A DNA stretch of 64,000 nt from Candidatus Uabimicrobium amorphum (GTDB lineage: Bacteria > Planctomycetota > Uabimicrobiia > Uabimicrobiales > Uabimicrobiaceae): assembly GCF_009002475.1 (NCBI RefSeq), contig NZ_AP019860.1:3038001-3102000 (forward strand), given 5' to 3'. The notes beneath the pieces are model-generated. The model had not been told where the DNA came from, searched no databases, and saw only the letters and a program-made list of their open reading frames with translations. How positions within the stretch are numbered: the first letter of the stretch is position 1; every line of letters begins with the position of its first letter. Positions 34,272-39,873 of the stretch are shown here, one piece after another. Made by a program: the position numbers and the translations under genes.

Positions 34272-35879
34272 CTAAGAAACACTTCCTGAAACTTGGTCAT
34301 CCTTGCCACCGCAATCGGTAATCATTGCTTCTGTTGTCAACATCATACCAGCAACACTAGCAGCGTTTTGCAAAGCAACACGCACAACTTTTGTCGGATC
34401 AATAATTCCTTCGGCTAGCATGTCAACAAATTCACCACTACGAGCGTTGAAACCAATGTTCACTTCTTTTTCTTTTACGTCAGCAACAATAACGGTTCCA
34501 TCGTATCCAGCATTTGACGCGATTTTTTTAATAGGCGCACTAAGTGCGTTGCGAATGATTTGCACACCAAACTTTTCTTCTGGACATGCTTCTAAATTAT
34601 CCAAAGCATGCAAAGAACGAATGTAAGCAACACCACCACCAGGAACAATTCCCTCTTCTGCGGCTGCTTTTGTCGCGTGTAGTGCATCTTCAACACGTGC
34701 TTTCTTCTCTTTCATTTCTGCTTCGGTTGCTGCCCCAACTTCGACAACAGCAACACCACCAGAAAGTTTGGCTAAACGCTCTTGTAATTTCTCACGATCG
34801 TAATCGGAAGAGGTTTTTTCGATTTGGTTTTTGATTTGAGAAATGCGGCTTGCGATATCTTCCTTGTTACCAGATCCTTCCACAACGGTGGTCGCATCCT
34901 TCGTAATGGTAATGCGCTTGGCATTCCCCAAGTCTTCTAGCTCTACATTTTCTAATTTCAACCCAAGATCTTCACTAATTACCTTACCTCCGGTAAGTAC
35001 AGCGATATCTTCCAGCATCGCTTTGCGACGATCTCCAAAGCCAGGAGCTTTTACGGCGCACACATTGAGAACACCGCGAAGTTTGTTTACAATAAGCGCT
35101 GCTAATGCCTCACCTTCCACATCTTCTGCGATAATAAAAAGTGGTTTTCCACCACGCGCCGTTTTTTCGAGTACAGGTATTAGCTCTTTTACGTTGGAAA
35201 TCTTCTTCTCGTATAGCAAGATATGCGCATCTTCAAGGTCTGCGCAAGTATTTTCCACGTCGGTAATGAAGTAAGGAGAGATATATCCCTTATCGAATTG
35301 CATACCTTCCACGCAACGCATGGATGTCTCAATTCCCTTTGCTTCTTCAACGGTAATCACACCGTCATTACCAACTTTTTCCATGGCGTCGGCCAATAAA
35401 CTTCCAATTTCAGCGTCACTATTCGCCGAAATGGTTCCGACTTGGGCAATTTCTTCCTTGCCTTTTACTTCACGTGATAGCTTTTGGATTTCGCTGACAA
35501 CAGCGTCGACCGCTTTGTCAATACCTCTTTTGATTTTAACGGCATTTACGCCTGTGCTTGCATACTTTAAGCCTTCAGAGTAAATCGCTTGTGTTAAAAG
35601 AGTTGCAGTTGTGGTTCCGTCTCCCGCAATATCAGAAGTTTTTGAGGCGACTTCGTTCACCATCTTAGCACCCATATTTTCAAATGGGTCTTCTAGTTCT
35701 ATTTCCTTAGACACAGTAACACCATCTTTGGTTACCGTTGGACTACCAAAACTTTTTTGAATGACTACATTGCGTCCTGTTGGTCCCATTGTAACTGTCA
35801 CTGTCTTGGCTAATTTATCTAAACCGTCTTTTAATTTCTTACGCGCATCTTCACTATAAAAAAGCTGCTTAGCTCCCAT
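34272..35879 (-). CDS. groEL: 60 kDa chaperonin GroEL, copy without GGM tail
   Basis: A 535-aa chaperonin subunit. Hallmarks are [27 protein letters not shown], the ATPase segment [17 protein letters not shown], the Asp of the ATPase site and the equatorial return ([17 protein letters not shown]). The C-terminus ends with [13 protein letters not shown] in place of a GGM-repeat or acidic Met tail, unlike the second copy at 36308. This suggests a divergent folding chamber. It is downstream of groES with a strong aaggag Shine-Dalgarno. Planctomycetes often carry several GroELs, and specialisation of this one is likely but not shown. Confidence 0.95.
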
Positions 35880-35951
35880 GAAAATTCTCCTTTTTTATAC
35901 AAACAAAAGTCGTTGCTTTTGTCTTTAGTGAGCTTTAAACATAACTTTTAC

Positions 35952-35969
35952 GGGAAGCCAAAGCTTCCC
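35952..35969 (-). other. Hairpin between groES and groEL
   Basis: GGGAAGC-CAAA-GCTTCCC is a perfect 7-bp stem directly after the groES stop, within the operon. It may modulate the groES/groEL ratio or block 3' decay. Confidence 0.5.
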
Positions 35970-35977
35970 AGTCACCT

Positions 35978-36265
35978 TTACCCAAGTTTCGCTAAAATAT
36001 CACCTTCTTTTAGTATTTTGTACTCAGAACCACCGTACTTTACTTCTGTTCCAGAGTATTTACCAAAAATAACGCGATCGCCTTCGCTAAGGCTACATGC
36101 AACACGCTCACCGTTTGCCAATAGCTTTCCATTTCCTACAGCAACTATTTTTCCACGTTGTGGTTTTTCTTTTGCCGTTTCAGGTAAAACGATTCCACCT
36201 TGAGTTTTTGCTTCTGCCGCTTCAATTTCTACAACTACGCGATCATCAATTGGTTGAAGAGCCAT
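35978..36265 (-). CDS. groES: 10 kDa co-chaperonin GroES
   Basis: A 95-aa heptamer subunit that caps GroEL. The start [22 protein letters not shown], the mobile loop ([16 protein letters not shown]), [10 protein letters not shown] and the [16 protein letters not shown] region are all typical. The tail [14 protein letters not shown] ends at the usual place. It lies between the two groEL genes, 42 bp after the first, and presumably serves both. The Shine-Dalgarno is taggag. Confidence 0.97.
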
Positions 36266-36307
36266 TTTTAATCTCCTATCAAAAAACTTATTCCTAAGCT
36301 AAAAATA

Positions 36308-37927
<1,620 letters not shown>

Positions 37928-38148: not shown

Positions 38149-38212
38149 CAACCGATACGACATTTTGACATTGGATTGAGGGTGTGGGAGTTGTGCATGG
38201 TAGATGCTTAAA

Positions 38213-38292
38213 ATCGTGACCATAGTCGTAATCACGATTACGGTGACGACTACGGCTACGATTACGGTCACGGTGACGATTACGGTTGCGAT
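38213..38292. repeat. Degenerate hexanucleotide tract (about 13 units)
   Basis: About 80 bp read in phase as six-base units of type NACGRY (tacggt, gacgac, tacggc, tacgat, cacggt, gacgat and so on), immediately after the selenoprotein stop. It is too degenerate for a simple microsatellite yet keeps a strict 6-bp period. Confidence 0.8.
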
Positions 38293-38295
38293 TGT

Positions 38296-39567
38296 TTAAT
38301 TGTTCAAACCATCGCCAAGTAAACCTGTATATGCTTCACCTAAGTCGATAAGCGGTTTATTCGCGGGTGTTAGAAATATTTCGCGAAATACGCGTTCATT
38401 CATATAGCCGAAACCTTTTTGCGCTTCGCCATCGCAAAACCATTGATGAATTTTGGCGTGAAATTCATATTCATTGCGCATGGTATCTTCGGCCAATGAT
38501 TTTTCGAAACTGCGGATTAAGCGAGCAACAGGGCTTTCGACAAGTGCTTTCGAAGCGGTAATTTGAATAGGATTTTGCCACTCAATGACACTACGACTAC
38601 CGCGATCCAATTTTGCGTCACGGTAATGCAAACGCGCTATTTGTTGCCATACATTTTGCGATGTTTTTTCCCGCAAGGTAGTAATTTTGTGTACTTGCGC
38701 CGACCTTTTGCGTACTTGAACCGATCGTATAACGGGAAGTTCTATACCGCGTTTACTTTTGGTTCTTATTGCCGCACGCACCGCCAAAGATTCGCGCGAT
38801 GGTTTTAAGTTAACGTTTGCGAAAATACCGAGCGTGCGTAAATCTTTACTCCATGACTTGCGAATATTTTTTAAGCGCACTTTGTGGTATGTTTCTATGA
38901 TTATTTCGCGTTTAAAGTCACTAACGTTCTGTAGTTGAGACCACAAACGCAAGCTCCCGGAAATCACTCTTTGAAAAGCATTTGCACCGTATATACCAGG
39001 AACTACATCTAGTAAATTTCCGTGATGATCCATCACATAGTGTGCCGCATTACCCGTGATCGTTCTCTTAACAACACGACCATCACCAAAATCTATAGTT
39101 ACCACAGGTACGGGGCGTTCTGACTGCCAACACAGTACAAAATTACGGCGTAAATATGACGACAGCTGATTATTCGCGTACAACACGGTACGCATAAAAC
39201 GTCCATTCGCTCAACAAAACTCTTCGTCTAGTCGCCCCAAAAGTCTTAAAAGCAACAACGGTTTGTTTTGTTGCGCGGCAACTTTTTTTGCCGTATCTAT
39301 GTCCGTATACCAATACAAACCGGAAAATACCGCGTGTTTTTGTCCCGCCACTCGATCAATAATATCAAAAATTTGCTGTTGTTTTTGTGTTCGTAACACA
39401 AGCGGCAACTCTTGGTACTTTTGTAACAATAACTGCAAACCATCGTTTCCCATACTGCGTAATTCAAGAATAGCACTTTCATTATTTTGGAAAGCCAGAG
39501 TGCCCAGATTTCTCTCTGCGAACAACAATGAATGTAGCAAAATCATCATGATTGTTATATTGCGCAT
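38296..39567 (-). CDS. Secreted thioredoxin-like selenoprotein (in-frame UGA read as selenocysteine)
   Basis: Standard translation gives two ORFs: 39211-39567 ending in LLGRLDEEFC-stop, and 38296-39195 starting at an internal Met. Both are in the same frame with only five sense codons after the TGA (39211-39213) before that Met. Read through, they make one 423-aa protein with Sec119 in DEEFC-U-ANGRFMRTVLYANN. The N-terminus is a signal peptide (RNITIMMILLHSLLFA) behind an aaagga Shine-Dalgarno. Residues about 95-210 look like a thioredoxin-fold domain (AKKVAAQQNKPLLLL; VPVVTIDFGDG; AHYVMDHHGNLLDVVPG). From memory, relatives carry Cys at the UGA position. A hairpin just after the UGA fits a bacterial SECIS. 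The C-terminal 200 residues are basic and of unknown role. Confidence 0.82.
39170..39197 (-). promoter_or_regulatory. Bacterial SECIS-like hairpin downstream of the UGA
   Basis: On the coding strand, GCGTAC-CGTGTT-GTACGC forms a perfect 6-bp stem and 6-base loop. TTAT/ATAA extend it by four pairs across a 2-base bulge. The loop begins 23 bases after the UGA and has G at its second position, matching the general bacterial SECIS model (loop 16-37 bases after UGA with an early G). Confidence 0.6.
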
Positions 39568-39873
39568 GTTTTTTCCTTTCATAGTTGTGATATTTGTTAT
39601 ACTCTCATCCTACCACAACTACGCCATTTACAATGTAACATGTTTGTAACAACTACTTACTATGGTTTTTGTCGTTATAGCTAAAAGAGTTGCAATCATT
39701 TTTATATTACAGTATAGTAGTAAAAAGGTCATCTTATAGTTGCTTACATATCAAAATTTATCCGTTCAAACTTTTTCGGTGGTCAGCATAAATTACTCTA
39801 TGCGACGACCAAATCTATTTGAACGAAAAAATTTATTTGTATTACCCTTCTAACTCATTCTTTCGGGGAAACA
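39568..39873. other. Divergent intergenic region, selenoprotein and kinase genes
   Basis: A 306-bp AT-rich gap. It contains the Shine-Dalgarno of the selenoprotein gene at its left edge and a large nested inverted repeat at 39753-39835 before the kinase gene. No ORF is supported. Confidence 0.65.
39753..39835. repeat. Nested inverted repeat in kinase leader
   Basis: An outer 18-base arm pair (39753-39770 with 39818-39835, 15 of 18 matching, core CGTTCAAA/TTTGAACG) encloses GGTC/GACC and GCATA/TATGC stems around AATTACTC. It is either a structured 5' leader or the remnant of a small mobile palindromic repeat. Confidence 0.55.

Follow-up and report, generated by a model that had tools for sequence, protein, structure and literature searches.

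On the minus strand of the window, by which we mean the whole stretch of 64,000 nucleotides that was analysed, positions 39567..38296 form one frame of 423 residues that ends in a TAA stop codon and is interrupted by one in-frame TGA (39213..39211). Translation of this strand bore out what had been described from the letters alone, namely two ORFs in the same frame (39582..39211 and 39195..38296) with this TGA as their sole separator, the second of which possesses no early start other than a Met at the sixth residue past the TGA. The features of the gene, together with related loci elsewhere in the host genome, are listed in Table 1. The gene may alternatively start at ATG 39582, in which case the predicted selenocysteine (Sec) is residue 124; since AAAGGA is located 6 nt upstream of ATG 39567, the latter is the better start, as had been proposed, and makes Sec residue 119. 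Right past the stop codon of the gene, positions 38210-38295 contain a short and degenerate repeat (CGATTACGGT type), and a groES-like gene flanked by two groEL-like genes (34272-37915, minus strand) is situated directly downstream.

Table 1. Features of the predicted selenoprotein gene and of related loci in the host genome
Feature	Position	Strand	Basis
Full selenoprotein gene via TGA read-through	38296..39567	-	Homologues span the same region; Shine-Dalgarno-like AAAGGA
Signal peptide-like N-terminus MRNITIMMILLHSLLFAERN	39508..39567	-	Judged from the translation; predicted helix in the model
Predicted Sec-decoded TGA codon	39211..39213	-	TGA in all translated Sec-form homologues; Cys in 71 scored Cys forms
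SECIS hairpin	39175..39194 (loop 39187..39182)	-	Same register in Sec forms; covariation
Thioredoxin-like domain with Sec, approximate bounds	38950..39320	-	AlphaFold2 block with pLDDT 85-98; Foldseek; weak Thioredoxin_7 matches
C-terminal region, mostly helical	38296..38950	-	Conserved in Cys and Sec forms; helical in the model
selD (L018)	G000:C1:8531822-8532745	-	Product reads GAGUACKIG
Remote thioredoxin-like Sec paralogue L031, in-frame TGA	G000:C1:4328783-4329037	-	Motif HCULGGR
Remote thioredoxin-like Sec paralogue L149, in-frame TGA	G000:C1:1775841-1776086	-	Motif GLUSAGHSLRAV

Results

Reading frame on both sides of the TGA

The 304 codons downstream of the TGA are open; when the bases of that stretch were shuffled 20,000 times, no shuffle was open over this length. 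In the nearest orthologue, which belongs to another genus of the same family and is 47% identical, TGA occupies the same codon. Comparison of the two genes gave a pN of 0.40 and a pS of 0.82 before the TGA, and a pN of 0.37 and a pS of 0.79 after it, with pS saturated near 0.8; amino-acid change is thus equally restrained on both sides, which places both halves under selection at the protein level. TGA is a normal stop codon in this genome, where it terminates 8 of the 34 long ORFs of the window. An Rfam scan of the window at gathering scores returned no matches.

Homologues and the residue at the TGA column

A first homologue search covered 59 related genomes and identified relatives in nine, ranging from close orthologues to remote kin; TGA was present at the aligned column in all 18 distinct translated proteins, the window protein included. 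When a profile search was extended to 392 genomes of the phylum, matches were obtained in 113. The Sec-form motifs among the translated loci were CUANGR, CUTNAR, TUTNAR and CUANAA, in addition to a remoter USAGH group, while all 11 intact-frame (Cys-form) homologues that were fetched from the 392-genome search carry SCANSR at the site. All members that were read from the USAGH/USAA subfamily of Planctomycetota (L026, L027, L028, L033-L036 and L066-L068) carry TGA at the same column; the sample is small and includes no Cys form. One relative, L025 (G048:C91:20998-22374), has two domains in tandem, and the second of its thioredoxin-like copies seems to have lost the Sec/Cys motif.

An independent set of 80 loci from named organisms was assembled with a query that begins after the TGA, and 74 of these could be scored with a motif that leaves the Sec/Cys site free. 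Cys was found in 71 (43 TGC and 28 TGT) and TGA in the remaining three, other codons being absent. As the sequence-only reading had stated, relatives with Cys at this position exist, and homologues do not end at this point but run past the site with Cys or TGA. All 71 Cys forms have Ser ahead of the site, the three TGA forms of this set have Cys there, and the Sec forms L059 and L061 possess Thr-Sec instead of Cys-Sec. The Cys forms originate from Planctomycetota, Acidobacteriota, Cyanobacteriota, Myxococcota, Verrucomicrobiota and a few sources under other labels. Those with the motif SCANSR[FY]FR (L070-L148) are full-length like the window protein, with about 29-43% identity over the aligned set, and differ from it in having Cys for Sec and Ser for the Cys ahead of it, and in lacking the SECIS hairpin.

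A hairpin directly after the UGA

In the window gene, 16 nt after the UGA are followed by the hairpin UGCGUAC-CGUGUU-GUACGCG (7 bp; nt 17-36). In 15 of 15 distinct Sec-form genes of the subfamily, six or seven of the seven pairs form in this register (nt 17-23 with 30-36), and the loop is CGUGNN throughout, whereas at least six pairs in this register were found in none of 80 Cys-form genes. The mean number of pairs observed was 6.67 of 7, as against 3.74 after synonymous recoding of the same proteins. In the hairpin alignment 95% of cells are paired and changes on both sides occur at five of the seven pairs; the covariation score was 0.55 compared to 0.20 for shuffled alignments (0 of 500 shuffles reached the observed score), and registers slid along the alignment scored at most 0.19. 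Most of the remoter Sec subfamilies have a hairpin at or near the same place, with CGUG as the loop in several and GGUC or AGUU elsewhere. A hairpin directly after the UGA and a G in a small apical loop are described features of bacterial SECIS elements (PMC1088965), and both are present in the window gene.

Selenocysteine machinery

The host genome is a single contig of 9.5 Mb. A search for selA, selB, selC and selD identified all four: tRNA-Sec (selC) at 67.5 bits with anticodon UCA, selB at 364 bits (above cut-off), selA at 494 bits and selD at 394 bits. The selD product, as it reads in Table 1, implies that this gene, too, contains an in-frame TGA, and selD is thus itself predicted to encode a selenoprotein. 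The hairpin of the remote paralogue L149, GAGAGC-CGUGAC-GCUCUC, shares the CGUG loop of the window gene.

Across the phylum, selA was above cut-off in 238 of 392 genomes. It was present in 39 of the 45 genomes in which a TGA homologue reached E <= 1e-10 and in 199 of the 347 others (counts taken by hand from the result tables), an enrichment of strong TGA homologues in selA-positive genomes with an odds ratio of 4.8 and a Fisher p of 8e-5, which is a guide only because genomes of the same family are not independent. The six strong-TGA genomes (of 45) without a full selA hit are all fragmented assemblies (290-990 contigs; completeness 67-91%), which may lie behind the missing hit.

Predicted structure

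An AlphaFold2 model, built from 44 aligned sequences with Sec modelled as Cys and numbered from ATG 39582 (Sec = 124, not 119), attained a mean pLDDT of 87.3 and a pTM of 0.85. The thioredoxin-like domain corresponds to about residues 89-210 and carries the motif LDEEFCUANGRFMRTVLYAN...RPVPxxTIDFGDGR...TGN. In the model, Sec 124 is located between a strand (109-115) and a helix (125-134), in local blocks with a pLDDT of 93-98. This position, where the first active-site helix begins, is the one that the redox residue takes in thioredoxin folds. Foldseek likewise ranked thioredoxin folds (3f9u, DsbH, AGR2, UAS and DsbD gamma) highest, with weak E-values of 0.004 at best, and a sequence search of the solved structures in the PDB returned chance hits only and no relative. 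The model thus supports a thioredoxin-like fold for the predicted protein, and its confident domain spans the TGA, in keeping with the sequence-only reading. The C-terminal end of the family has a conserved NERVYxExFLTPxxxPWLGL-type motif in both Cys and Sec forms.

Relation to known families

Pfam and NCBIfam scans of the window protein and family members produced no model at cut-off, and the best E-values were weak. Among named families, VPGUxxT types 1 and 2 (NCBIfam NF041382 and NF041383) come closest; these are thioredoxin-like (seleno)proteins too, and remote members give weak matches to them in the region of the active site (L025, E 4e-8; L023, E 0.001). The window protein reaches only E 0.045 and 13 bits against a cut-off of 350, while L025, the best relative, reaches 33 bits against 275, and the active-site motif is CUANGR in the window protein as opposed to VPGUxxT. 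Thioredoxin_7 (PF13899) and DsbH-like (PF03190) proteins likely have the same fold as the window protein, with weak matches among members (best E 1.3e-5 for L025 and 0.00026 for the Cys/Sec subfamily set); against the Thioredoxin_7 gathering score of 27, the window protein obtains 13.5 bits and L025 25.7. In contrast to these proteins, the present family has a single Sec or Cys without CxxC, and an extra, large C-terminal helical region. The Trx7/PDZ domain-containing (seleno)protein (NF041199) is likewise of the Thioredoxin_7 type and gives only trace matches in remote members; its listed motif is CxxU (PMC13188914), compared to adjacent CU in the window protein. Unlike classical CxxC thioredoxin and DsbA, the family has none of the CxxC, UxxC or CxxU spacings, but only an adjacent CU in which the Cys is not conserved.

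A catalogue of May 2026 that comprises 119 prokaryotic selenoprotein families contains no CUAN-type thioredoxin-like protein (PMC13188914). A new selenoprotein family is recognised by a TGA conserved in several sequences, Cys homologues and a SECIS element (PMC1088965), and the present proteins qualify as such by their conserved TGA, Cys homologues and SECIS; for a bacterial selenoprotein, TGA in more than one sequence, Cys homologues, the hairpin and selA, selB, selC and selD were all found. The proteins constitute a widespread and apparently undescribed selenoprotein family of Planctomycetota, although a member was possibly sighted earlier, in the candidate table of a planctomycete genome paper (PMC4807772).

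Discussion

Based on the frame, the conserved TGA, its replacement by Cys, the SECIS covariation, the machinery and the predicted fold, each of which was computed directly, we consider it almost certain that 38296-39567 on the minus strand encodes a single exported selenoprotein, in which the hairpin and SelB direct Sec to the UGA within a thioredoxin-like domain. The claim of a new selenoprotein thus holds, by virtue of the conserved TGA, the Cys-form relatives, the covarying SECIS and the full Sec machinery; the protein belongs, moreover, to a wider Sec superfamily rather than being an isolated case.

Cys codons, TGT and TGC, are a single base removed from TGA and Cys-form homologues exist, so that one nonsense mutation or one base error could in principle have split an ordinary Cys protein. 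Such a pseudogene or sequencing error is refuted by the conserved TGA and the hairpin, and we consider it extremely unlikely: further genera and families of the phylum share the TGA at this codon, which rules out the base error at 39211-39213 that the sequence-only reading had left as a concern, the adjacent residues change in step (Ser-Cys-Ala-Asn-Ser versus Cys-Sec-Ala-Asn-Gly), the SECIS hairpin is confined to TGA forms, and the half downstream of the TGA is under equal selection. Since the frame is open whichever residue the UGA encodes, decoding as Trp or another residue, or unspecific read-through, would equally yield the full protein; we rate this very improbable and reject it, since 8 of 34 long ORFs of the window end with TGA as a working stop, the column holds Cys and never Trp in homologues, and the genome combines complete Sec machinery with a covarying SECIS hairpin.

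The ATG six codons past the TGA could also serve as the start of a second protein, preceded by a short secreted one. The predicted junction, however, falls inside one confidently modelled domain, the Cys homologues are single continuous proteins, and a conserved TGA column with a hairpin would be needless in such an arrangement, which we therefore reject as having hardly any likelihood. Somewhat less remote, though still unlikely, is a selenium switch at the UGA, by which a shortage of selenium would lead to a truncated protein and an ample supply to the full selenoprotein, both of them functional. A truncated form of 118 residues would be a natural by-product of inefficient Sec insertion, yet in the model it would lack most of the thioredoxin-like fold, and homologues hint at no selection for a stable short form.

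For the single selenoprotein that we favour, the insertion of Sec, export and the reaction catalysed are what we infer from these data. SelB bound to the hairpin directly past the UGA would bring Sec-tRNA-Sec, the UGA would be decoded as Sec, and translation would continue for 304 more residues. The product would be exported via its N-terminal hydrophobic stretch, judging solely from a signal-peptide-like N-terminus. The mature protein would comprise the thioredoxin-like domain, in which Sec (Cys in relatives) is the sole redox residue conserved throughout the family and, as the only active-site position conserved as Sec or Cys, probably the catalytic residue. The neighbouring Cys, found in most Sec forms of the subfamily, could pair with Sec as a selenenylsulfide. 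An exported Cys-Sec oxidoreductase had been suggested; Sec is supported, while a fixed Cys-Sec pair is not, given Ser-Cys in the Cys forms and Thr-Sec in L059 and L061. As the residue ahead of Sec is not always Cys, Sec is probably the one essential redox residue, and a mechanism based on a single Sec, in which a vicinal partner is optional, would be a better fit than an obligatory pair. The protein is most likely a thiol/selenol oxidoreductase of the cell envelope, with reduction of disulfides or peroxides as the likeliest guess. The ORF lists around three Sec-form relatives revealed no evident shared context and no conserved neighbour that would support a role, partner or substrate.

A rebuilt tree of 136 columns, partly resolved and rooted at the midpoint only, places the remote USAGH group and the CUTNAR group as entirely Sec with the Cys forms nested, and the earliest branch of the CUAN/SCAN clade is that of the window protein with its orthologue; the fewest Sec/Cys changes are two on the best tree, while one is still compatible. 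This topology points to Sec as an old state in the superfamily and to Cys as a derived one. We tentatively entertain, with somewhat more doubt than confidence, an exported thioredoxin-like superfamily (CUANGR, CUTNAR, USAGH, UANAQ and CULGG; here in Planctomycetota) in which Sec is ancestral.

These findings would add an apparently undescribed selenoprotein superfamily, of which annotation would show each gene as two hypothetical genes, with three members in the host genome and TGA-bearing relatives in dozens of the 392 genomes that were sampled from the phylum. Its SECIS hairpins form an unusually clear set, with a fixed register, a covarying stem and a CGUG loop; accompanied by matched Cys-form controls, this set lends itself to the modelling of bacterial SECIS elements. 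Because the switch alters neighbouring residues too, from Cys-Sec to Ser-Cys, the family represents a natural system for studying when and why Sec and Cys replace one another. If Sec is indeed ancestral, Cys would have replaced it later on in the Ser-Cys proteins of Cyanobacteriota, Acidobacteriota and other groups, which would reverse the usual assumption that Sec replaces Cys.
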